From: Deltaproteobacteria bacterium
GTDB taxonomy: Bacteria > Desulfobacterota > Desulfobacteria > Desulfobacterales > GCA-2748835
Direction: 5' to 3'
Assembly: GCA_002748835.1 (NCBI GenBank)
Contig: PDTL01000018.1
Location: forward strand, 1 to 64,000
DNA length: 64,000 nucleotides
Below, one piece after another: positions 1 to 50,845 of this stretch. Under the pieces are notes generated by a model. The model was not told the DNA's origin and made no database searches. It worked only from the letters and a program-made list of their open reading frames with translations. How positions within the stretch are numbered: position 1 is the first letter of the stretch; each line of letters starts with the position of its first letter. The translations under genes and the position numbers were made by a program.

Positions 1-218
1 ATTATTAGAATTGAGTATATCATGTCGACTTCAAACTTTCAACATTATTTAATAAATTCGAATTGTTAAAATTCATAGGCTCTTAAGTTAATGACATTGA
101 GTAATATTTTGTATAATAAGTCCATTCTCTTAGGAATTTTGATTTGCTACGTACCACAAAATACTGATGTTTTGCGGTGATAGAAAACATTAATAATATC
201 TATAAATTGGAGGAAGCA

Positions 219-548
219 ATGAAAGGAAAATTTGAAATTTACAAAGACAAAGCAGGAGAATTTCGTTTCCGGTTAAAAGCGAGTAACGGACAGAACATTT
301 TCGCCAGCCAAGGCTATAAAAAGAAATCCGGCTGCATTAACGGCATTGAATCTGTCAAGAAAAATGCGCAAATTGAAAATAGATTCCAAAAAATAGAAAC
401 AAAAGCAGGTAAGTTTGCTTTTAATTTAACCGCCGCCAATCAGCAAATTATTGGGACAAGCCAACAATATAACTCTTCCTCTTCACGAGATAAGGGCATT
501 AAATCTGTAATGAAAAATGCCCCAGAAGCAGATATTTTTGAAGTTTAG
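219..548 (+). CDS. YegP-like DUF1508 family protein, two tandem repeats
   Basis: Two repeats of the K(F)EIYKDKAGEFRFRLKASNGQxIxxSQGY motif. Start taken at the internal ATG (MKGKFEIYKD); the ORF opens at 177. Confidence 0.75.
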   Translation: MKGKFEIYKDKAGEFRFRLKASNGQNIFASQGYKKKSGCINGIESVKKNAQIENRFQKIETKAGKFAFNLTAANQQIIGTSQQYNSSSSRDKGIKSVMKNAPEADIFEV

Positions 549-579
549 CTTCAAACAAATATCAGCAAAATACAACTTG

Positions 580-636
580 ATTGGCCAAAAGCGTATTCTA
601 GAAAGCAATACTGTTAATTAACGCTTTTGGCTGTAT
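580..636 (+). terminator. Inverted repeat downstream of the YegP-like gene
   Basis: gccaaaagcgt ... acgcttttggc arms with a ~25 nt loop; no strong T tract. Confidence 0.4.
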
Positions 637-738
637 TCACGACTAGCGCCTTTAATTACAAACATAGTTAACATATTGAATTGTTTGCATATAGTTGTTT
701 CTCCGGATTTATTTCACTCGCCGGAGAACTCAGCATTA

Positions 739-875
739 GTGCGCCAAGCGAAGCTTGGTGCTTCTTATAGGGTGCCCCTGTTTCAAACAGGAAGTCCTTG
801 TCGGGCAAAGCCTAACCAGCAGCCCGTACCGAGCGTTGCGCGACTTGCGGAGCTATGAGAATGGCGAACAAGAGT
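739..875 (+). mobile_element. Probable group II intron 5' fragment (truncated domain I)
   Basis: Begins GTGCGCC, matching the group II 5' consensus GUGYG, followed by structured GC-rich RNA-like sequence (caagcgaagcttgg; gcccctgtttcaaacaggaagtc; cctaaccagcagcccgtacc). No RT ORF follows; it runs into integrase-derived sequence on the opposite strand. Confidence 0.5.
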
Positions 876-1456
876 TGTGAAGAGAAACTCCGGGTGTCGA
901 TGGACCGCCCAAAACAGTCTCAGGGTCTGCAGTGTCTTGTGTGGCAGGGGAACTCATCTGTCCTTGTTTCCTTTAGCGTTCCGGATGTGGACGTGCATGC
1001 GGTTGGCGTCGATATCACCAACCGTTAACCGGAAGCCTTCACCCAACCGCAGGCCCAGGGAATAGACAGTGAAAAAGAAGACTTTATAACTCAATTATCG
1101 TGTTGTGGAAACGAGCAGGTGGAGTTGTTCCACTGAAAGGATATCTGGAATTCGTAGGGTCTTGGACGGTTTAATCAGGGGGATATCCGTCCAGGTTTTA
1201 TAAAGGACATGGGTGTAAAAGAACTTCAGGCCATAGAGGTCGAGTTTGACCGCGCTCCAGGAATGGCAATGGAGCAGGTCGTTGAAATCATCAAGGAGTT
1301 GATCCGAGGTCAGGTTATCAATTTGGCAGTTGAAATAATGACCGATCCGCCGGATGGCTCGAGCGTAGGCCTCGATGGTTTTGGGCTGCATTCCTGCCAG
1401 TTTCAAGCACTGAAATAGGTGTTGAATGCTGGATCCTTCGGGATGGTGATGTTCAT
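870..1456 (-). pseudogene. Decayed tyrosine recombinase/integrase
   Basis: Minus-strand reading EHHHPEGSSIQHLFQCLKLAGMQPKTIEAYARAIRRIGHYF...LSVEQLHLLVSTTR*LSYKVFFFTVYSLGLRLGEGFRLTVGDIDANRMHVHIRNAKGNKDR*VPLPHKTLQTLRLFWAVHRHPEFLF: phage-integrase N-terminal and catalytic domain signatures, two in-frame stops, 5' frameshift, missing C-terminus. Confidence 0.8.
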
Positions 1457-1779
1457 TGTAACCTCCGTTTTGAAATAATGGATAAACGGCAGCTGTCTTT
1501 TCGATAGACTACTATAAAACAGGAAGTTACATGGGATATTTAAAGCGGCGATGCTTTTGCCTCCGCGAAGCGGTTTGGGTCAACAAAACGCTTGAGAAGG
1601 ACCAAGCTTACTGTGCGGCCTTTTGAAAGTGCCTGGTTCATGAAAATTTGATTTTTTATTGGAGCTTTTGGGGGTTAAGGCGCCTGGCCCCTCAGCTCCT
1701 CGTTAGCTTTCGCTCACCTTGACACACCGAACAATGTGTGACACTCTGTGTAAGAAGATAAGTCCACAGGAGGTGAAAA

Positions 1780-1977
1780 ATGGCAACTAACTTGGCAATA
1801 AATGATAGTTTACTTATCGAAGCATTGGAAATCAGTGGATTAAAAACCAAAAAAGACACGGTAAATTTAGCTCTCAAAGAATTTGTCGATAGGCGAAAGC
1901 AACTCGAAATAACAACTCTTTTCGGGAAAATGGATCCAGATCCAGATTACGACTACAAACAAGGACGGATTCGTTGA
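1780..1977 (+). CDS. VapB-like antitoxin
   Basis: 65 aa; MATNLAINDSLLIEALEISGLKTKKDTVNLALKEFVDRRKQ resembles VapB-type antitoxins; overlaps the downstream PIN toxin. Confidence 0.8.
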   Translation: MATNLAINDSLLIEALEISGLKTKKDTVNLALKEFVDRRKQLEITTLFGKMDPDPDYDYKQGRIR

Positions 1978-2378
1978 AAATTTTAGTTGATACTTCAATA
2001 TGGTCTTATGCCTTTCGCTCAAGTAATAAAAAATTCCAAACTGAAATAAACCATTTAATCGCCCTGATACAAGATCAAAGAGCAATGTTAATTGGCCCGA
2101 TAAGGCAAGAAATATTATCAAGTTACAGTAATTTGCGTAAATTTTCAAAAATCAGAGAGAAGCTTTCATACTTTGAAAATACTGCCATTGAGGACTCAGA
2201 CTACGAACTTGCAGCTGAGTTCAGCAACAAATGTCGAAAAAAAGGAATTCAAGGTTCACATATAGATTTTTTAATTTGTGCAGTAGCTAATAGAGTCGAT
2301 GTTCCCATATTTACATCTGATAAGGATTTTAGCAATTACCAAACGGTTATACCTGTAAAATTATATGATTTAGGCTAA
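1974..2378 (+). CDS. VapC-like PIN-domain toxin
   Basis: MKILVDTSIWSYAFR start motif and conserved acidic residues (DFLICAVANRVDVPIFTSDKDF); TTG start overlapping the antitoxin stop. Confidence 0.85.
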   Translation: MKILVDTSIWSYAFRSSNKKFQTEINHLIALIQDQRAMLIGPIRQEILSSYSNLRKFSKIREKLSYFENTAIEDSDYELAAEFSNKCRKKGIQGSHIDFLICAVANRVDVPIFTSDKDFSNYQTVIPVKLYDLG

Positions 2379-2392
2379 CGAATAAGGTTAGA

Positions 2393-2813
2393 TTGTTCAA
2401 CTACATTATTAAGGGGAAACCGGAAACGGTACGAGCCCATCTGGTTACCGTTCCCATGTATACGGTGTGTGTCAGCGATCACCCAGGCTGAATTATTGCG
2501 GGGTGTAGCCAAAAAGCCGGAAGCAACGCAGTTATCGGTGGCGGTTAATGAATTTTTGATTCGTGTTGATATTTTACCTTGGGGATCCGAGGCGGTAACG
2601 GCATATGCCCAACTACGGACCAATTGTAAGCGTGAGGAACTTTCGGTTGGTGCTATGGATATGCTGATTGCAGCCCATGCCGTTGCCTCAGATGCGATTC
2701 TGGTGACCAACGATCAAGCGTTTTATCGTGTCTCGCATCATTTAAAGCTGGAACACTTTATAAGTGTTGGGAATATCCGATCAGCAGCCGACAAAAGGAA
2801 TCTTGACGATTGA
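2393..2813 (+). pseudogene. Truncated and frameshifted second PIN-domain (VapC-type) toxin
   Basis: LFNYIIKGKPETVRAHLVTVPMYTVC in one frame, then VSAITQAELLRGVAKKPEATQL...GAMDMLIAAHAVASDAILVTNDQAF in another; shift within ggtgtgtgtc; N-terminal catalytic Asp segment missing. Confidence 0.7.
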
Positions 2814-3706
2814 TCAAAAAAAACATAGGCACTTCTTTGAAAAAATGGGAGATAAAAAACGATCAAAACAGTGTGGGAACCATTGTCAGAAAATTTCTTG
2901 GTAAGGGTATCAGCATCTCCCACAGCAAATCCTTTTCCATGGAATCAATGGAGTCTTCGGTGGTTGAAAAGGAATCCCTTGCCAATTTTGTGTTTCTTCT
3001 TTCCGGTGAACTGGATCTGAAGCATGACAGGTGCAGTACATGGCAAAACATGCGCCAGTCAAATGCCTATCTCTTTTTCTCGGAAGACCGCAGCAACATT
3101 CGAAGAAGAATCAATGCGCAAGTCTCTACCGAGGCGTTAATCATCAAAATTTCCAGGAACATCTTCCACACCTTGATGTCAGACGTGGAAGATTCCCATG
3201 GCCTACTGGCTAGGGGCGTGCGATATTTTTCCAAAAGCATCTCTGCCCATGACATCATGCTGTGTAATTATTTAGTATCCTGTCAGTATAAGGGACAAAT
3301 CGGGCAGATGATTCACATGGGCCGTTCCCTGGAATTGGTCGCCCGCACTTTTTTGCAGGGCGTCAGGGATGTCCAGAGTGAATCTTTGATTATTCTGGAA
3401 CTTACAGGTTATATCAAAGATCATATTGATCAAAACTTCTCCCTGAAAGCACTTTCAAAAATGGCAGGGATGAGTCACACCAAACTGAATACCCTTTTTC
3501 GGGTACACACGGGTTTCAGCGTATTTGAATTTATTCGTCAGGAAAGATTGTTGCGTGCGGAAACCTATTTACAATACACAGACATGAGTATTACCCAGAT
3601 TGCATACGAGGTCGGGTTTTCTTCCTCGAGTCATTTTAGTGAATCTTTCCGAAGATACAGGGGAATTACCCCCGGACATTTCAGAAAAACCCTTTTCTGT
3701 CATTGA
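2810..3706 (+). CDS. AraC-family transcriptional regulator
   Basis: C-terminal double HTH: FSLKALSKMAGMSHTKLNTLFRVHTGFSVFEFIRQERLLRAETYLQYTDMSITQIAYEVGFSSSSHFSESFRRYRGITPGHFRK. Confidence 0.9.
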   Translation: MIKKNIGTSLKKWEIKNDQNSVGTIVRKFLGKGISISHSKSFSMESMESSVVEKESLANFVFLLSGELDLKHDRCSTWQNMRQSNAYLFFSEDRSNIRRRINAQVSTEALIIKISRNIFHTLMSDVEDSHGLLARGVRYFSKSISAHDIMLCNYLVSCQYKGQIGQMIHMGRSLELVARTFLQGVRDVQSESLIILELTGYIKDHIDQNFSLKALSKMAGMSHTKLNTLFRVHTGFSVFEFIRQERLLRAETYLQYTDMSITQIAYEVGFSSSSHFSESFRRYRGITPGHFRKTLFCH

Positions 3707-3971
3707 CGGCTGCAGCATTGTAGCCTCTCTCTATCCTTTTTGGATCCATTGCCTGATTCTAAACGATATTATTATAACAAACAGTTCGTCCATTTTTTCA
3801 TTACCATGAACGTGTCCGATGGAAGACGACAAACTACCCGTCGTTCCATGGACGTTTATGCAAATGATATTCTTTTTTCGTGAACTGATATTTTTTTCAT
3901 TTTTTCTTTTGTACTCTCCCAGATAAAATAAAAAAGGTTGTTGATCTCACCCCTTTTTTCAGGAGGATATA

Positions 3972-6050
3972 ATGAATTTATCCATATTATCTGGGCTGTT
4001 ATGTATATTTTTATTCTTTTTTCCCTTTTCAGGCCTGGCGCATGGTAAAACGATTTCCCTTGCAGCAGATTCAGCTGTAATCCTTGAACCGATTACGGTG
4101 ACGGCAAGCAAACGAAAGGAGACAGTCAACGCGTTTCCAGGCAATCTTTCCGTCATGGACGATGCGTTCATGGAAACACGGGGAACAAACGCACTTGGCA
4201 GCCTTATGCGTTTTACTCCCAATGTGTATATCAAGGATACCAGTTCCGGCGGTTCCATTGTCAGCCGTGGCATTTCCACCATTGATACTTCATTGTTCAG
4301 CCCCATGGGACTGTACGTAAATGATGCGCCCTGTCCCATTGGCTATATGTCCAATCAAGATCTTTTTGATGTGGAACGGGTGGAAGTGTTACGCGGCCCA
4401 CAGGCGACCCTGTATGGCCGCAACAGTGAATCCGGCGTGATCAATATTGTGCTCAGACAACCGGATAATGAACAGAGAAGCAGCGTTTTTCTGGAAGGAG
4501 GCAGTCATCGTACCGGCCGAACAGGTGCAAGTGCCAGTGGCCCTGTTGTTAAAGACACGCTTTTTTACGCGTTGTCTTTTCTGGGCCATATGACTGACGG
4601 CTACAATGAAAATATGCTTACCGGCAAAAACGATGTGAATGGCGAAGAGACCTTGACAGCAAGGGGAACGCTTCGCTGGACTCCAGGCAAGAATTGGGCT
4701 GTGCGTTTTCACCTGGACGCTGCCACTCGGAATCTTGGCATCAGTGCCCTTCGCTATTCCAATGGCCCCAATGCCACAGATCGCTTCAACGTTGCCAGCA
4801 ATGAAAGTGATGATGCAGACGAAAATGAACGGGGTCAGTCTGTCCGCATTAACTATCAGTGGACAGGCATGGAACTGACCGCCATCACCAGTCACCGAAC
4901 CTTTGACAGAACGCACCATCTTGATGCCGACAGAACAGCCAGGCCCATGGCTATCAGTGATCTGGATATGGAATTGGACAGCTGGGCCCAGGAGATTCGT
5001 CTTGCTTCCACAAACAAATGCCGCCTGAACTGGCTCCTCGGTTTCCATGGCCGCTACGAAACCATCGATTCCGGCTTTGACTTTACCCACATGATACCAG
5101 TGAGAACCTCTTCACGTTCAGGCAAAAGTAAAGATCTGGGATACGCGGGATTTGGCCAGGCCACCTATGAGGTAATGGATGGATTACGCCTTACCGGCGG
5201 ACTGCGCGTGGATGTTTCCCATAATTCAGGAAAGCAAACCTATCGACCGAAAACGGGTTCTGTTTCCTATGAAAAAGATGTGGACAGCACCGAGTGGCTG
5301 CCCATGGCTTCTCTTGCCTGTGATCTGACGCCCAGTACCACGGCCTATACAACGGTTTCCAGAGGATATCTGGCAGGGGGATTTAATTTTTACACGGCTA
5401 CGGATAAGGACAGTTTTGCCTATGATGCCGAACATACCATGAATTACGAAGCCGGCCTGAAAACCAATTGGCTGGACCATGCCTTGTCATTGAATACCAC
5501 GATTTTTTATACGGACATCAGCGACAAACAAGTCAGGGAAGAAATTCCTGGAGCGGGACTTGGGGTTTGGAAATTCACCAATGCCGCCAGGGCCCATACC
5601 CAGGGCCTGGAATTGGAAGCCAGATACAGACCCATGACTGGGCTGCAGATTTTGGCTGGGTTTGGATGGGCTGGCTCTGAAGTTGACACATGGAAGACCA
5701 CCGTCAGGGGAAATCCTGTGGACTACAGCGGCAACAAGCTGGTCTGGGCTCCTGAATACACCTACAATCTGGGGGTTCAATATGACCATGCCAATGGATT
5801 TTTCTTTGTTGGTGATTTCCTGGGCACTGGCAAGCAGTATTTTGATGCTGCGAATCAACTTATGGAAGACGGTTACGAAACTGTCAATCTGCGTTTGGGA
5901 TACCAGTCCGAAACAATAGTGTTTTCAATTTCTTGCAATAATCTTCTGAATGAAAGCTATACCGTCAAACAGGTCAGCATGTCCCAATTTACGTTAGTGG
6001 AGGACGGCACACCTCGCACATTCGGATTCACCTTTAACTGGAGATTTTAG
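3972..6050 (+). CDS. TonB-dependent outer membrane receptor (FyuA/siderophore-receptor type)
   Basis: Signal peptide; TonB-box-like ILEPITVTASKRKE; plug motif DVERVEVLRGPQATLYGRNSESGVINI; C-terminal ...TFGFTFNWRF. Confidence 0.9.
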   Translation: MNLSILSGLLCIFLFFFPFSGLAHGKTISLAADSAVILEPITVTASKRKETVNAFPGNLSVMDDAFMETRGTNALGSLMRFTPNVYIKDTSSGGSIVSRGISTIDTSLFSPMGLYVNDAPCPIGYMSNQDLFDVERVEVLRGPQATLYGRNSESGVINIVLRQPDNEQRSSVFLEGGSHRTGRTGASASGPVVKDTLFYALSFLGHMTDGYNENMLTGKNDVNGEETLTARGTLRWTPGKNWAVRFHLDAATRNLGISALRYSNGPNATDRFNVASNESDDADENERGQSVRINYQWTGMELTAITSHRTFDRTHHLDADRTARPMAISDLDMELDSWAQEIRLASTNKCRLNWLLGFHGRYETIDSGFDFTHMIPVRTSSRSGKSKDLGYAGFGQATYEVMDGLRLTGGLRVDVSHNSGKQTYRPKTGSVSYEKDVDSTEWLPMASLACDLTPSTTAYTTVSRGYLAGGFNFYTATDKDSFAYDAEHTMNYEAGLKTNWLDHALSLNTTIFYTDISDKQVREEIPGAGLGVWKFTNAARAHTQGLELEARYRPMTGLQILAGFGWAGSEVDTWKTTVRGNPVDYSGNKLVWAPEYTYNLGVQYDHANGFFFVGDFLGTGKQYFDAANQLMEDGYETVNLRLGYQSETIVFSISCNNLLNESYTVKQVSMSQFTLVEDGTPRTFGFTFNWRF

Positions 6051-6053
6051 GAT

Positions 6054-7103
6054 ATGATGACACTTCAACAACCAACGGCTGTCCATAGTCAGAAACCAAA
6101 CCCCGACCTTATCGCTGAATGGATGCTGGGGCCTGTACACATGGCGGTATTGAAATCTGCCCTGAAAATGAATATTGCGGATATACTGACCCGGCACAAT
6201 AACGTGCAGGCCATTGCCAATGCCATGAACATCCAGGCGGATACGGCAAACCTTGGGTATTTTCTGGATGCCATGACGGCCATGGGCCTTGTTGAAAAAA
6301 AGTATGGACGCTATACCAACACCGCTTTTTCTAAGATGTATCTGTGTACTGACAGTCCCGCCTACATGGGTGGCGTGGTGGAAACGCTTTCACGCAGGCG
6401 GCACAAAAATCTGGGCCGCATCCCTGAACTGATTCGTCATGGGACGCCAGAAGTGAAAAAAGACGATCAGCTTGACAGCACAGAGATGTGGACAGCTTCT
6501 GTGGGGCATCTGGTACATTATCAGAAAGCGGGAATTGCCAATGAAGTTGCTGGTATACTGGCATCTTTGCCGGAATTTTCTGATATGAAACAAATGCTGG
6601 ACATGGGATGCGGGCCGGGCATTATGAGTATTGCCACTGTTTCCCGTCATCCGTCCATGCGCGCGGTTCTCTGTGATCTTCCGCCGGTAATGGAGATTGC
6701 CCGGCAACAAGTGGCAGATGCCGGACTCGAAGACCGGATAACGACCATTGAAGGCGATTATAATGAAGTGGATTTTGGGAAAGATTACGATTTGATCTGG
6801 GCCAGCCAGACCCTGTATTACGTCAGGAATTTTGATGCCATGTTTTCTCGAATACACAACGTCTTGAATCCGGGCGGTGTGTTTGTCAGCGTTCACGAAG
6901 GCCTGACATGTGAGCGAACCCAGCCAGCAGACATTGTACTTTCCCGGTTTTCTCTTGCCCTGGAAGGCCAGGATGTTTCCTTTGAACAGGGGCAGATTGT
7001 TTCATACCTTACCAACGCTGGTTTTGCATCCATCGAAACCAGAGAAATGACGCTGCCTATGGCCGGTCCTGTGGAGTTTATCATTGCCCGTAAAGCAAGC
7101 TAA
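6054..7103 (+). CDS. SAM-dependent methyltransferase with winged-helix dimerisation domain
   Basis: Motif I MLDMGCGPGIMSIA; N-terminal dimerisation-like domain; follows the receptor by 3 nt. Confidence 0.85.
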   Translation: MMTLQQPTAVHSQKPNPDLIAEWMLGPVHMAVLKSALKMNIADILTRHNNVQAIANAMNIQADTANLGYFLDAMTAMGLVEKKYGRYTNTAFSKMYLCTDSPAYMGGVVETLSRRRHKNLGRIPELIRHGTPEVKKDDQLDSTEMWTASVGHLVHYQKAGIANEVAGILASLPEFSDMKQMLDMGCGPGIMSIATVSRHPSMRAVLCDLPPVMEIARQQVADAGLEDRITTIEGDYNEVDFGKDYDLIWASQTLYYVRNFDAMFSRIHNVLNPGGVFVSVHEGLTCERTQPADIVLSRFSLALEGQDVSFEQGQIVSYLTNAGFASIETREMTLPMAGPVEFIIARKAS

Positions 7104-7107
7104 ATTC

Positions 7108-7278
7108 ATGCGCATATTTTTCCTGACAGTAGTGGTATTGGTTTTCTTTCTTGCCTGTCCTGCCCTGGCGAAAAATAAAACAAAAGGGACAAAAAAGAGG
7201 CCTATGAAAGTCCCCCTTATCGTTGGAAAACCGGGCGTTAACAGGAGACTTTTTTTGATAGCGATGGCGTTCCTTTGA
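7108..7278 (+). CDS. Small putative secreted peptide
   Basis: MRIFFLTVVVLVFFLACPALAKNK looks like a signal peptide; very short and of uncertain reality. Confidence 0.3.
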   Translation: MRIFFLTVVVLVFFLACPALAKNKTKGTKKRPMKVPLIVGKPGVNRRLFLIAMAFL

Positions 7279-7311
7279 GAAAAACGACCGTTGTTATAAT
7301 AAGGAAATGAT

Positions 7312-8179
7312 GTGGGCTTGATTAAGAAAAATTTGCTGTTTGCATTACTTCATATCAGTTTTTCAAGCATTACTATTTTTTTTATGATGGGGCTGCCGAT
7401 GATAATCCAGATGCGCGGATTTGGAGCCTCCATTATCGGGTTGTTTCAATTGGTCGCCATTCCTACGGTGATAAAATTTTTATATTCCACGCCGGTTGAC
7501 CGGATAAGATTTAAAACAAATCATTATAAAAAATGGGTTTTGATAAGCTATCTTGCTTGTGTCTTGCTTCTGACGGGTATCGGTTTTTTAGATCTGTCCT
7601 TGCATTTGGGCGTCATCTTTGCCCTTATCTTTTTAAGTGCTTTTGTTTTGTCCTTAGCGGATGTTTCTGTAAATGCCCTTTCTATCAAGGTGTTTCAAGC
7701 AAACGAAAGGCCAAGTGCCGACGGAGCAAAAACGGCCTCATTGTTTGTGTCAGGGATGTTAGGCGGCGGGATTTTTTTGATTTTATTTAACCATATTTAT
7801 TACAAAAATTTTTGCCCAAAAAATGTTGCTTTTGCTTTTTACTGCGGTAAATATCCTCAGCGTGTCCATACTTTTTTGCATAGAATATTTTGAGGTTAAA
7901 AACGTTGGCGCTTTCCTTGGGGTCATCACCCTGACTTCCATCAGCGTTGCTCTGAGTTCCGGGATTTTATTTTCCATGATGATGGATTATGCAAGGGAGC
8001 CGTTACGGGCGACTGATTACGGGGTGCAATCGAGCATCTCTTCCCTGACAAGGATACTCAGTGCGGTAATTGCAGGCGTTTTAGTGGGAAGATTTGGCTA
8101 TGCAAGTATGTTTTTATTTGAGATATCCGCTATGGGTCTTGTTTTTGGCATCGTATGGATATATTATGAGGAAAAATAG
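7312..8179 (+). pseudogene. MFS transporter (RhtX/FptX or AmpG-like), interrupted by a frameshift
   Basis: ORFs 7312-7893 and 7823-8179 join at an A-run (cccaaaaaatg ~7812-7820); dropping one A gives ...YYKNFCPKMLLLLFTAVNILSVSILF.... May be a sequencing indel. Confidence 0.7.
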
Positions 8180-42257: not shown

Positions 42258-43007
42258 ATGTTTTGGGAACAGGGGGGATTCATGGCTGAAACAGGCAGTA
42301 TGACAGATCGGCGCCGGCAGATCCTTATCGGGCTGGTGGCAGTACTGGTGTCGGCAGTGGTCGTCATCATCTGGTGGAGTAACCGGATGGTGCTGCCGGA
42401 TACCACCTCGCCACCGGTACACGGACTGGCCTTTTTCGACGTGGGCGAAACCACGGTGCTCAGCCGGGGGCTGCAGACGTCCCTTGAATCGGTACTCGGG
42501 GAATCGGCCATCGAGGGATGGAGTCCTGTGGACCTGTCTGACGGCGGCCATGCCTATCTGCCCGGCAGGTTCCCGGATCTGGAGGCGCTGAACAAGGGTC
42601 TGTCCCTGAAAGACGGCACGCTAGCCGGCAATGCCACCTGGAAGCTGGTGTTCCGGTATGCGAAATTAAACGGCCTTCCGTTTTCTCATATTAAAATGGT
42701 GTTTGATAAAAAAACAGAGCGTCCCTTGTTTATTCAGGCCCGCGCGGCATCAGGTCAGCAGGACTTTTCAACGACCCTCACGGCGAAATTCGGACAGCCG
42801 GCAATCACCAACGGGCCGGACCGAACACTCGAGTCCCGGGTATGGACAGAGGGAGAGAACCTGCTGATCGCCTCCCGGGTGCCGAATAAAATTGATGTTG
42901 TGGCGTGGCATCTGTATATCTATTTCAAAGGAAACATTCAGGCGCTGGTGAACCGATTGGAGGCAGATGCGGCCGCTTCCGCTGTTTCAGAGCCCAGCGC
43001 TTTCTAA
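42258..43007 (+). CDS. Hypothetical protein with N-terminal membrane anchor
   Basis: RRQILIGLVAVLVSAVVVIIWWSNR, then soluble region; RBS gggggattc upstream. Confidence 0.6.
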   Translation: MFWEQGGFMAETGSMTDRRRQILIGLVAVLVSAVVVIIWWSNRMVLPDTTSPPVHGLAFFDVGETTVLSRGLQTSLESVLGESAIEGWSPVDLSDGGHAYLPGRFPDLEALNKGLSLKDGTLAGNATWKLVFRYAKLNGLPFSHIKMVFDKKTERPLFIQARAASGQQDFSTTLTAKFGQPAITNGPDRTLESRVWTEGENLLIASRVPNKIDVVAWHLYIYFKGNIQALVNRLEADAAASAVSEPSAF

Positions 43008-44935: not shown

Positions 44936-45946
44936 TCAGTAGGCTTCGCCGTGATCCATGTCTTCCGGTGTCACCTTGGTTTTGAACAAGTTGTACGCCC
45001 AGGTCTGGTAGGCAATGACCATGGGGATGAAGATCAAGACCACCACCAGCATAATCTTCAGGGTCAGGGGGCTGGATGCCGCGTTATAGGCGGTGAGCGC
45101 CAGATCATTCTGGTAGGTGGGCGGAAACAGGGTGGGAAACAGGCCGATGACGCCGAAGAAGGTGGCCCCGGCAATGGTGCCGGCAGAGGCAAACCAGGCT
45201 TTGAAATAGGCGCCCTTGGCCAGAAACATGCGGACAGCGACCAGCAGACCCACCGTCACGATGATGACCAGAAACAACATGGGATTTTTCAGATAATTGT
45301 CATACAGCGGGGTGGCAAACCAGCTGGCAACGAGAAACAGGGCTGCGACAAGCAGCTCAGCCGGCCACAGCCTGCGAGTGGCTTTGACTGTCCGGTCCTG
45401 TAGATCTCCTTCTGTCTTGATACAGAGCCACAGGGCACCGTGAACGAGAAACATCACCTGAAACAGGATACCGCCCAGCAGGGTGTAGGGGGTGATCAGG
45501 GAGAAGAGGCCGCCGTCCAGCGGGTTACCGGCAAAAATATTGGCAAAGGCGACGCCGAAGAGAATGGCGGGCAGGGTGCTGCCGATAAAAATACAGCCAT
45601 CCCAGAGCATCCGCCAGTTCGGGTTGTCGATCTGATCTCTGAATTCAAAGGAAACCCCACGGATGATGAGGGCAAAGAGGATCAGCATCAGCGGTGTGTA
45701 GAGGGTGGAAAACATGGCCGCATACAGAATGGGGAAAGCGGCAAAGGTGACGCCGCCAGCAGTGATCAGCCAGACTTCATTGCCATCCCAGAGGGGACCC
45801 AGGGCGGTGATCATCATCCGCTTTTCCGTGTCAGATTTTCCGAGAACCGGATACAGCGCACCAATACCCAGGTCAAAACCGCCGGTCATGAAGAATACGG
45901 CCCATAACAGGCCCCAGATGTAAAACCAGATTGCTTGCAGTTCCAT
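44936..45946 (-). CDS. cydB: Cytochrome bd ubiquinol oxidase subunit II
   Basis: ELQAIWFYIWGLLWAVFFMTGGFDLGIGALYP; WDGNEVWLITAGGVTFAAFP. Confidence 0.95.
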   Translation of the reverse strand: MELQAIWFYIWGLLWAVFFMTGGFDLGIGALYPVLGKSDTEKRMMITALGPLWDGNEVWLITAGGVTFAAFPILYAAMFSTLYTPLMLILFALIIRGVSFEFRDQIDNPNWRMLWDGCIFIGSTLPAILFGVAFANIFAGNPLDGGLFSLITPYTLLGGILFQVMFLVHGALWLCIKTEGDLQDRTVKATRRLWPAELLVAALFLVASWFATPLYDNYLKNPMLFLVIIVTVGLLVAVRMFLAKGAYFKAWFASAGTIAGATFFGVIGLFPTLFPPTYQNDLALTAYNAASSPLTLKIMLVVVLIFIPMVIAYQTWAYNLFKTKVTPEDMDHGEAY

Positions 45947-46012
45947 AAGATATCTCCCGTGCAATGGGTCCGGAACAGTCCGGATCCGTTACGTTTTCAT
46001 TATATCATCACA

Positions 46013-47350
46013 TTAAACAGCAGCTTCTGCATCCGCATCCGGTTCCGGCAGCTGTCCCGGTCCCTTGATCGCATGCTTGGCTATGAGAAAAAAACCGGCC
46101 AGACCCAGCAGTGTGTAGACCACGAAGAATCCGATGAGGGTGACCAGTACCTGACTTGTCACCACCGGGGAGGCGGCATCAGCGGTGCGCATCAGTCCGT
46201 AGACGATCCAGGGCTGACGGCCCACTTCGGCCAGCACCCATCCGGCCTCAATGGCGATATAGGGCAACGGAATGGAAACCAGCATGATTTTCAGCAGCCA
46301 GGGAGATGCCACCAGATGTTTTCTGCGAAACCAGGCAATGATGGTGATGATGATGAAAAAGGTACCCAGGCCGACCATGGTCTTGAACGCGAGGGAGGTG
46401 AGGAGGATGGGCGGCCGGTCTTCTTTTGGAAATTCCTTGAGACCCTTGACCTCGGCGTTGAAGTCATGATGGGAGAGAAAACTGAGAAGCCCCGGGATTT
46501 TCCCGATTTCAATGCGGTTTTTCTCGTTTTCCACATCCGGCCAGGCAAAGGTGATGATGGGCGCACGTTCCTGGGTCTCCCAATGGCATTCCATGGCTGC
46601 CAGCTTGGTGGGCTGGGTGTCGGCCAGATGGGTGCCGTGCATGTCACCGGTAGCGCCGACGATGAGCGCGGATATAATCGCCAGAATCAGGGCCATTCGG
46701 AAAGAACGCTCAAAAAAATCGATGTGCTGCTTTTTGAGAAGATGCCAGGCGGAGATGCCCATGACGAAAAACGTGCCGAGCAGGAGACCGGCGGCAACGG
46801 TATGGCCGAATTCGAGCAGGGCAAAGGGCTGGGAGATGACGGTCCAGAAGTCGGTGAGCTCGGCGCGGCCGTTGCGGAGGGTGTACCCCACCGGATGCTG
46901 CATCCAGGAGTTGGCGACCAGGATCCAGAACGCGGACAGGTTGCCGCCGATGGCGACCAGCCACATGACAATGGCGTGGGCTTTTTTGGACAGTTTTTTC
47001 CAGCCAAAGATCCAGATGCCAATGAAAGTCGACTCAAGAAAAAAGGCGACTGATGCTTCAATGGCCAGCAGAGACCCGAAAATATCGCCGACATATTCGG
47101 AATACCGGGACCAGTTGGTGCCGAACTGGAATTCCAAAGTGATCCCCGTGACCACGCCCACGGCAAAATTGATGAGAAACAGCTTGCCCCAGAATTTTGT
47201 CATCCGGAGGTAGGTTTCATCTCCGGTGCGCACATATCGGGTTTCCATCCATGCAATCAGAATGGACAGCCCCAGGGTCAGGGGGACGAACAGAAAGTGG
47301 AACATGGTGGCTGCGGCAAACTGCAGCCGGGACAGCAATACAACATCCAT
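46013..47350 (-). CDS. cydA: Cytochrome bd ubiquinol oxidase subunit I
   Basis: SRLQFAAATMFHFLFVPLTLGLSILIAWMET; GVVTGITLEFQFGTNWSRYSEYVGDIFGSLLAIE; GWVLAEVGRQPWIVYGLMRT. Confidence 0.95.
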   Translation of the reverse strand: MDVVLLSRLQFAAATMFHFLFVPLTLGLSILIAWMETRYVRTGDETYLRMTKFWGKLFLINFAVGVVTGITLEFQFGTNWSRYSEYVGDIFGSLLAIEASVAFFLESTFIGIWIFGWKKLSKKAHAIVMWLVAIGGNLSAFWILVANSWMQHPVGYTLRNGRAELTDFWTVISQPFALLEFGHTVAAGLLLGTFFVMGISAWHLLKKQHIDFFERSFRMALILAIISALIVGATGDMHGTHLADTQPTKLAAMECHWETQERAPIITFAWPDVENEKNRIEIGKIPGLLSFLSHHDFNAEVKGLKEFPKEDRPPILLTSLAFKTMVGLGTFFIIITIIAWFRRKHLVASPWLLKIMLVSIPLPYIAIEAGWVLAEVGRQPWIVYGLMRTADAASPVVTSQVLVTLIGFFVVYTLLGLAGFFLIAKHAIKGPGQLPEPDADAEAAV

Positions 47351-47380: not shown

Positions 47381-47415
47381 AAAAAAGGCGAACAGCACCT
47401 AGGTAGCTGTTCGCC
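47381..47415 (-). terminator. Intrinsic terminator between desulfoferrodoxin gene and cydA
   Basis: Minus strand ggcgaacagc-loop-gctgttcgcc followed by ttttttc. Confidence 0.85.
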
Positions 47416-47451: not shown

Positions 47452-47823
47452 TCAGGCCTTCCAGACGCCGTGAAGGTTACAAAATTCCCTTGCGGTTACC
47501 GTTTCGGCGTCGATCCTGAAAACCGCTTCCGGTGTTGTTTCCGGGGTTACGTATTGAGTGTGGTCCTTCCCACTGGCAAAGAATTCGATCCACTCGATAC
47601 AATGCGTCGCTTCCATGGGGCGTGCCGCGCTGCCCACGGTAACATTGAAACTACCATCGATTTTTTCGATCTCCGGCACCTGCTTTTCGTTTGCCGCATC
47701 CATGGTGTTCTCCGTCATCCGCTTTGTGGTTTCCCCGCAGCAAGCCAACGGCCCACCGCCGTGAATGTATTCAACTTCGTTGCCGCAAAGATGACACGTA
47801 TAAATTTCAAAAATCTGAGCCAT
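47452..47823 (-). CDS. dfx: Desulfoferrodoxin (2Fe superoxide reductase family), atypical center II
   Basis: N-terminal desulforedoxin motif CHLCGNEVEYIHGGGPLACCGE; VTVGSAARPMEATHCIEWIEF; REFCNLHGVWKA. Confidence 0.92.
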   Translation of the reverse strand: MAQIFEIYTCHLCGNEVEYIHGGGPLACCGETTKRMTENTMDAANEKQVPEIEKIDGSFNVTVGSAARPMEATHCIEWIEFFASGKDHTQYVTPETTPEAVFRIDAETVTAREFCNLHGVWKA

Positions 47824-48395: not shown

Positions 48396-48758
48396 ATGAT
48401 GAAGTTGAGCGACATCAAATTAGACTTGGACCTGATCAACTCCATCGATTGGGAAATGACGCCGGAAGATGCGGTGAAACTCTATCTGGAATGGGGAAAC
48501 AGCCGCGGGGAACGCAGTCATATCGTTGTTCGGGGTAAACAGGATGCATCGACCTACTTTGTGGTGAACAATTGGGGACCGCAGCCAAAAATTTTTCTCA
48601 TCCGCAGGAACTCAGAAGAAGCACGGGAACTGGCGGAAATTGAAATGCCACAGGATCTTGAAAGAGAATTTTTAAATGAAATCGGTAACAACCGGGGGCT
48701 TTACTCCATTGAAGGAAATGTCTGTACCTGGTTGAAGCGGGAACTTCTGGAAGAATAA
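48396..48758 (+). CDS. DVU0772-like family protein
   Basis: IDWEMTPEDAVKLYLEWGN...YFVVNNWGPQPKIFLIRRNSEEARELAEIEMP resembles the DVU0772 family of sulfate reducers (recalled, not searched). Confidence 0.65.
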   Translation: MMKLSDIKLDLDLINSIDWEMTPEDAVKLYLEWGNSRGERSHIVVRGKQDASTYFVVNNWGPQPKIFLIRRNSEEARELAEIEMPQDLEREFLNEIGNNRGLYSIEGNVCTWLKRELLEE

Positions 48759-49306: not shown

Positions 49307-50845
49307 TTACGGTTTTCGTCCATGATCCCATGAACCGGGGGCATTTCCCAGCCCGGAGACCGGTTGGCCGGTATACGGCATACAAACGCCCACGGGAAAC
49401 ACCTCCGGAAGCTGCCGGCGGATTTCCGGAAGGGCTTCCGGCAGGCAGGTGAACAACAGCTCATAATCTTCGCCGCCGGCGAGCATGAGATCCCGGGGAT
49501 CTTTGGCTGTGCAGGCGGCAAACCGGGTGAGTGCCGGCGGAATATCCTTGCCGGCGATGGAAAGAGCAATGGTGAGGCCGGCCGCACGCGCCATGTGGGA
49601 CGCATCGCCGGCAAGTCCGTCACTGATGTCCATGACGCAGGTGACGCCTGCTGTTTCAAGCATTTTTGCCGCGTCAAACCGGGCTGTCGGTGTTTTGAAC
49701 GCGTGCACCAGCTCCGGGAAACCGGGGATCTCGTTTTCCAGGCAGCACAGCCCTGCCCGGGCCAGACCAATGGGCCCGGTGACACACACCTGATCGCCAA
49801 TACGGGCCCCTCCCCGATGGGGCGGCTGCTGCTGCCTTCCCTCTCCGATAACAAACAGATCCAGCCCCAGGCGGTTGCCGGATGAGACATTGCCTCCTCC
49901 CAGGCGGCAGGCGTAGTGTTCAAGGGCGCGGGTGATTCCCGTATACAGTTTTTTCGCCTGCACCACAGAAAAGGCGCGCGGCAGGGTAAGGTTGATGAAC
50001 AGGGCCACAGGATCGGCAAAGGATGCGGCCAAATCACTCAAGGCGGCCACCACCGCTTTGAATCCAATCTCTTCAAGGGTTTGCCAGTCCAGCCTGAAAT
50101 GCACCTGTTCACGCTGGCTGTCCGTGGAGATGACCGGACAGGCGAGTGGCCTTACCAGAGCCGCGTCATCCCCGGCCGGAACAGGGAGTGACGGGTGGGG
50201 GCCGGAAACGCTTCCGGCTGTCTTGAGCAGATCCCGGATGAGATCGAATTCGCCGGACCAGCAAGGGAGGAAAGGACGCGGGGGCTGCTGACGTTTTTTC
50301 TCAAAACCGTGCGCTGCCGATGCAGCATATCCAACAGGGTCCGGTGTATCAGGATGATAAACCGGGGTTTTTCCCTCTGAGGTGTGCCGTGGCAGGCAGG
50401 TCAGATAAAAGTCCGGCCGTGCAATACTTTTCTTTAAATATGCGCCGATATCAGGGGTCAGGACGCCAACCCGGATATGCGCGGGCAGGGCCGCCTGGGC
50501 GGCAGGCAGGTCTTCTTCTGTCGCTGTCCCGGTCAGAAGCAGGGCATCGGCGTCCAGGGCAAGGCATAGCACCGGGTCATCTTCAATCACCAGCCAGACG
50601 TCATTGGCCCTGCACATGCACAGGATGTTCTGCAGTTCAGGAATTGCCGTGACCACAGGGGCAGGCGGAGAAAGGGAAATGGCCGTGGCACCCATGGACA
50701 CAAGTCGGCTGATGATCTCTGCGCAGAGCCTGTCTGCGGGTACCGAAAGGCATACCATCCGGTCCAGCCAGCGGGTGAACCGCGGAGGCTGTATGCGGGA
50801 CAGGGGCGCACTCACGGGACCGGCATGCGGAATTTTTCCGCCCAT
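49307..50845 (-). CDS. thiL: Thiamine-monophosphate kinase with N-terminal ThiE-like domain
   Basis: C-term ThiL: GEFDLIRDLLK...AGDDAALVRP...GGGNVSSGNRLGLDLFVIGEG...VMDISDGLAGD...LAGGEDYELLFT. N-term ~190 aa: CRANDVWLVIEDDPVLCLALDADALLLTG resembles ThiE beta/alpha segments. Confidence 0.85.
   Translation of the reverse strand: MGGKIPHAGPVSAPLSRIQPPRFTRWLDRMVCLSVPADRLCAEIISRLVSMGATAISLSPPAPVVTAIPELQNILCMCRANDVWLVIEDDPVLCLALDADALLLTGTATEEDLPAAQAALPAHIRVGVLTPDIGAYLKKSIARPDFYLTCLPRHTSEGKTPVYHPDTPDPVGYAASAAHGFEKKRQQPPRPFLPCWSGEFDLIRDLLKTAGSVSGPHPSLPVPAGDDAALVRPLACPVISTDSQREQVHFRLDWQTLEEIGFKAVVAALSDLAASFADPVALFINLTLPRAFSVVQAKKLYTGITRALEHYACRLGGGNVSSGNRLGLDLFVIGEGRQQQPPHRGGARIGDQVCVTGPIGLARAGLCCLENEIPGFPELVHAFKTPTARFDAAKMLETAGVTCVMDISDGLAGDASHMARAAGLTIALSIAGKDIPPALTRFAACTAKDPRDLMLAGGEDYELLFTCLPEALPEIRRQLPEVFPVGVCMPYTGQPVSGLGNAPGSWDHGRKP

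Follow-up and report, generated by a model that had tools for sequence, protein, structure and literature searches.

The desulfoferrodoxin (Dfx) of an uncultured bacterium, kin of the sulfate reducers, has exchanged two of the five first-shell ligands of its catalytic iron, and one of the replacements is a cationic arginine. The gene lies in the window, meaning the whole 64,000-nucleotide stretch of DNA analysed here, and encodes a two-domain superoxide reductase homologue (Dx-SOR) in an intact frame, MAQIFEIYTCHLCGNEVEYIHGGGPLACCGETTKRMTENTMDAANEKQVPEIEKIDGSFNVTVGSAARPMEATHCIEWIEFFASGKDHTQYVTPETTPEAVFRIDAETVTAREFCNLHGVWKA, closed by a stop codon. The iron at centre II of superoxide reductases is held by an Fe(His)4(Cys) site (PMC3116461). 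Coordination chemistry makes it likely, with a good deal of confidence, that the window's protein is not a normal superoxide reductase, a judgement that covers both of the readings discussed below in which activity is lost.

Family membership and the two metal centres

By descent and by fold, the window's protein is a member of the desulfoferrodoxin family. The 123-residue product belongs to Pfam PF01880 (55.9 bits, cut-off 22.2) and to PF06397 (36.9 bits, cut-off 23), and matches PDB 1dfx with E=4.5e-42. The score against the NCBIfam desulfoferrodoxin equivalog TIGR00320 is 140.7, below the curated cut-off of 146.9, and the NCBIfam domain models TIGR00332 (52.1 against 61.9) and TIGR00319 (33.8 against 36.05) are missed as well. 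An AlphaFold model without metals adopts the superoxide reductase fold, with a mean pLDDT of 86 and TM values of 0.82-0.83 to 2ji1, 2ji2 and 1dfx; the fold is thus predicted to be retained. A canonical relative modelled as a control reached a pLDDT of 89.5 and has an equally weak loop at residues 41-50, so that the model shows a compatible fold and not a normal site. The dip in model confidence near the lost ligands was not accepted as evidence, since the canonical control shows it too.

At centre II the protein parts from its family. Superoxide reductases carry the SORGOdb pattern HX5H-CX2H (PMC3116461), and the window's Dfx does not match it, nor does it have the Fe(His)4(Cys) ligand set, owing to Gln48 and Arg68. 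Annotation as an active superoxide reductase is unwarranted, because the ligands that define the enzyme are incomplete. The active-site pair Glu47-Lys48 of superoxide reductase is present as Glu46-Lys47; residue numbers after the desulforedoxin (Dx) loop run one below those of D. vulgaris and D. baarsii because one loop residue is missing. The original prediction had reported both His replacements, with the remaining site (His74, Cys115, His118, Lys47 and four Dx cysteines) preserved, and reading of the codons and of the translation bears it out exactly. It did not mention the Dx-loop deletion, Cys75, Met33Thr or Leu92Val. Coordinates are collected in Table 1.

Table 1. Features of the dfx locus, with positions counted from the first letter of the window
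Feature	Position	Strand	Basis
Desulfoferrodoxin (Dx-SOR) gene, 123 aa, frame intact	47452..47823	-	translation, Pfam, PDB match
Centre I cysteines C10, C13, C28, C29; loop shorter by one residue (CX2CX14CC)	47737..47796	-	translation, alignment
Glu46-Lys47, active-site pair kept	47683..47688	-	translation, alignment
Gln48 codon CAG; canonical His49, equatorial Fe ligand	47680..47682	-	codon read; His in all 160 aligned relatives
Arg68 codon CGC; canonical His69, equatorial Fe ligand	47620..47622	-	codon read; His in 161/161 relatives
His74 codon, centre-II ligand kept	47602..47604	-	translation, alignment
Cys75 codon TGT; Tyr/Phe/Trp usual after third His ligand	47599..47601	-	alignment, codon read
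Cys115 codon, axial centre-II ligand kept	47479..47481	-	translation, alignment
His118 codon, centre-II ligand kept	47470..47472	-	translation, alignment
Intrinsic-terminator-like hairpin 3' of dfx: GGCGAACAGC-TACCTAGGT-GCTGTTCGCC-TTTTTT	47381..47415	-	sequence read directly
cydA, cytochrome bd oxidase subunit I; recurrent dfx neighbour in order	46013..47350	-	gene neighbourhoods
cydB, cytochrome bd oxidase subunit II	44936..45964	-	gene annotation

Comparison sequences came from the order (337 of the 390 genomes searched had a match), from public genome contigs and from further regions, a non-exhaustive survey in which mostly best matches were read. Among the 162 distinct Dfx thus gathered with tblastn, ligand, Glu or Lys positions are altered only in the window's sequence: none of the other 161 departs from His at position 48, where one is unaligned, or at position 68. 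Two more strictly invariant columns are changed (Met33Thr and Leu92Val), and 4 of the 25 invariant columns are broken, against a rate of 0.5% in the relatives (p about 7e-6). His74 is followed by Cys75, at a position occupied in the relatives by Tyr (41), Phe (11), Trp (7), Ser (5), Leu (3) or His (1). Centre I is touched as well, so that damage is found at both metal centres. Its published pattern is CX2CX15CC (PMC3116461); the window's Dfx keeps the four cysteines but has 14 residues, not 15, between C13 and the CC pair, a deletion of one whole codon relative to its relatives.

The original prediction also proposed to look for homologues sharing the Gln48/Arg68 pair (EKQ plus RPM) and for another canonical dfx outside this locus, and neither came to light. 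A search of 395 other genomes from the phylum did not turn up the pair in frame, and no relative sharing it appeared in viral contigs or in public genome contigs, the latter scanned with just six short query peptides. One pattern match in a further genome (G760) spans 74 nt, lies out of frame and was dismissed as a chance match. The window's gene is the only PF01880 match in its assembly, from which about 15% of the genome may be missing. A literature search found no paper on natural loss of the His ligands of a superoxide reductase.

Several other unusual dfx-like frames were seen along the way. In one relative, a 76-aa frame adjoining an intact dfx (L080; G013:C74:14179-14361, minus strand) looks like a decayed tandem copy, in which the EKHVP part is missing and Tyr replaces the third His ligand (HPMEEKYFIEW). 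In Desulfobacterales UWMA-0216 (L067 / L088; G005:C128), a second dfx copy is frameshifted within the Dx domain; it has canonical ligands, and the same genome holds another, intact dfx. Three distant PF01880 proteins (L082, L086 and L087) have an NCNxHG-like motif and no EKHxP motif and possibly form a separate SOR-like group; L082 and L087 are also followed, in or near the frame, by a membrane segment bearing an IHG motif.

Locus and oxygen defences of the genome

A common arrangement in relatives places dfx a short distance upstream of cydAB, and two small Cys-rich genes often separate them. At the window's locus these small genes are absent, and dfx is followed by a hairpin with a perfect 10-bp stem and a T run (an automated scan allowing loops of 3-8 gave a 5-bp core), with cydA and cydB immediately beyond it. 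Since the closeness of dfx to cydAB recurs in the order, the explanation that the gene is a paralogue was rejected; judged by its position, the gene looks to descend from the order's canonical dfx and not to be a spare copy. A homologue of one of the small Cys-rich genes, rubredoxin-like, sits on another contig of 149 kb beside a ferritin-like gene, and the other was not found in the assembly by a search run without a positive control. A canonical dfx beside the relocated rubredoxin-like gene was ruled out, as this gene lies inside its contig with the ferritin-like neighbour and no dfx.

How else might this organism deal with oxygen and superoxide? The assembly comprises 2.43 Mb in 38 contigs and is 85% complete; within it, no Fe/Mn-SOD, no Cu/Zn-SOD and no rubrerythrin (PF02915) was found. 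Three rubredoxins are present, and close to one of these lies a flavodiiron-like gene, so called from reading its sequence and not from a profile search. As neither a SOD nor another superoxide reductase was found, loss of Dfx would leave the organism without a known dedicated superoxide scavenger. Dfx has no match in 13 of the 202 good-quality genomes of the order, and is therefore dispensable in this group.

Other parts of the window deserve brief mention. Two unnamed plus-strand frames without a Pfam match, of 249 and 120 aa, occupy 42258-43007 and 48396-48758. The 512-aa frame at 49307-50845 (minus strand) has AIR-synthase (ThiL-like) domains in its C-terminal part, and its N-terminal 220 residues resemble a divergent ThiE, perhaps making it a ThiE-ThiL fusion. 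The first 8000 nucleotides (1-8000) have a GC content of 41-47% against 52-61% in the remainder, like a recently acquired stretch.

Rate of evolution and competing readings

In 13 relatives carrying both dfx and cydA, Dfx identity tracks CydA identity closely; the window's genome falls 15 points under the line (the next lowest, 6), and the rate of its Dfx is about double what CydA predicts. The codon model was home-made; it took its branch lengths from CydA, kept the CydA topology fixed and gave each branch class a single omega, which makes its omega values approximate: 0.131 on the window's Dfx branch versus 0.062 in the background. The difference (2dlnL 13.5) exceeds that at every other of the 14 tips and keeps a p of about 0.003 once corrected for their number; CydA has no change of omega on the same branch. 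An omega fixed at 1 over the whole Dfx branch is rejected, at a lnL of -3094.9 versus about -3023.7, some 70 log units worse. Read as a mixture, the fully neutral share of the branch is at most about 7%, some 0.11 substitutions per site. A dN/dS estimate without CydA-derived branch lengths was dropped as uninformative, the synonymous sites being saturated. Two histories agree with these rate data: selection may have been lifted recently, or it may have been weaker and altered for a longer time.

Of the possible accounts we favour a recent relic, in which superoxide reductase activity disappeared or was crippled fairly recently, with constraint on the gene now weakened; we consider it slightly likelier to be right than wrong. 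An ordinary Dx superoxide reductase gene of the order's type, at its usual place beside cydAB, would have lost its catalytic centre II. With two His ligands gone and a guanidinium at a ligand position, the Fe(His)4(Cys) site presumably could not form normally, and superoxide reduction would for that reason be lost or severely reduced. Selection would have weakened recently, leaving a relic at an early stage, probably still able to fold and perhaps to hold iron in its Fe(Cys)4 desulforedoxin centre. Oxygen would then be met mainly by O2 removal, through CydAB and the flavodiiron-like protein next to rubredoxin. This reading draws on the ligand changes peculiar to the window's sequence, the broken invariant columns, the raised rate, the damage at both metal centres, the absence of another PF01880 match and of the small Cys-rich genes, and the dispensability of Dfx in the order. 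The original prediction that the protein may not be a functional superoxide reductase gains strength from the two lost ligands, the missed NCBIfam cut-offs and the doubled rate. Its suggestion of decay next to cydAB is compatible with the data. The open frame, the rejected neutrality with its small neutral share, the sparing of conserved columns, the predicted fold and the retained Dx cysteines, Glu46, Lys47, His74, Cys115 and His118 speak against decay; with neutrality rejected over the whole branch and the frame intact, any decay must be recent or partial.

Those same signs of constraint could instead mean that activity was lost and the protein kept for another redox job beside cytochrome bd, which is conceivable though on the unlikely side. 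The Fe(Cys)4 centre could, for instance, transfer single electrons, or a three-ligand metal site of His74, His118 and Cys115 could act as a sensor. Rejection of neutrality, retention of every Dx cysteine and of three centre-II ligands, and an intact frame with its own terminator-like hairpin are what this account would lead one to expect; three rubredoxins remain as possible partners, and conserved columns are spared relative to variable ones, being altered less than a flat excess predicts (LRT p 0.04). However, a gene that worked through most of the branch and was released recently would give these signals too, and about 40 random, neutral substitutions left the frame open, with no stop, in 28% of simulations. 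The shortened centre-I loop is unlike preservation of centre I, and no orthologue with Gln48/Arg68 was found to show stable maintenance. It is doubtful that the lineage gave up the catalytic iron and kept Dfx under selection, as a pseudo-SOR, for redox or sensing work beside cytochrome bd. The sensor or electron-transfer role raised by the original prediction draws on the centre-I cysteines and the residual constraint, and nothing further spoke for it.

Could the altered site still work? Gln48 through its oxygen, a water or a neighbouring side chain might replace the imidazoles and sustain a slower but useful putative superoxide reduction, in keeping with the retained Lys47, Glu46, axial Cys115 and predicted fold and with the lack of any SOD or other superoxide reductase in the assembly. 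We consider this quite improbable: all other collected Dfx, including clostridial ones with 36-41% identity to the window's protein, keep every His, a guanidinium beside a ferrous ion is chemically unfavourable, and no nearby candidate for a replacement ligand could be named. An assembly or consensus error in this metagenome-type genome, with one or both codons wrong, is very improbable. The assembly is fragmented and incomplete, and each change is one base from a His codon (CAG from CAY, CGC from CAC), but many other conserved positions also differ while the frame is kept, the deletion removes a whole codon, and two independent errors both falling on ligands in a 372-bp gene are unlikely.

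Known superoxide reductases and significance

Among the closest known systems is the Dx-SOR or class I superoxide reductase (desulfoferrodoxin; 1dfx, 2ji1), with which the window's protein shares the two-domain layout at 53-56% identity in structure alignment, the Glu-Lys pair, the axial Cys, two of the four His, the four Dx cysteines and the predicted fold; it differs in that two equatorial His are Gln and Arg and the Dx loop is one residue shorter. Natural departures at highly conserved active-site residues have precedents. The superoxide reductase of Ignicoccus hospitalis (PDB 4bk8) lacks the conserved Glu or Lys. That of Nanoarchaeum equitans is described as lacking the conserved Glu or Lys in a paper, as cited in PMC3116461. 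Both enzymes keep Fe(His)4(Cys) and activity, whereas the window's Dfx has changed ligands and keeps Glu and Lys. The Treponema pallidum enzyme (PDB 1y07), which lacks the Dx centre, has, like the window's protein, lost one of two metal sites. The same likeness extends to the Atypical-SOR class of SORGOdb (PMC3116461), but its mutated members are damaged at centre I and the window's Dfx lost ligands at the catalytic centre II.

Annotation by domains alone would call the window's dfx an active superoxide reductase, which serves as a warning. No feature of superoxide reductases is better conserved than the Fe(His)4(Cys) site, and a natural Dfx in which two His are missing while the Glu-Lys pair, the axial Cys and the fold persist would test which ligands are needed. 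It would also test whether an anaerobe keeping cytochrome bd can live without a known dedicated superoxide scavenger.
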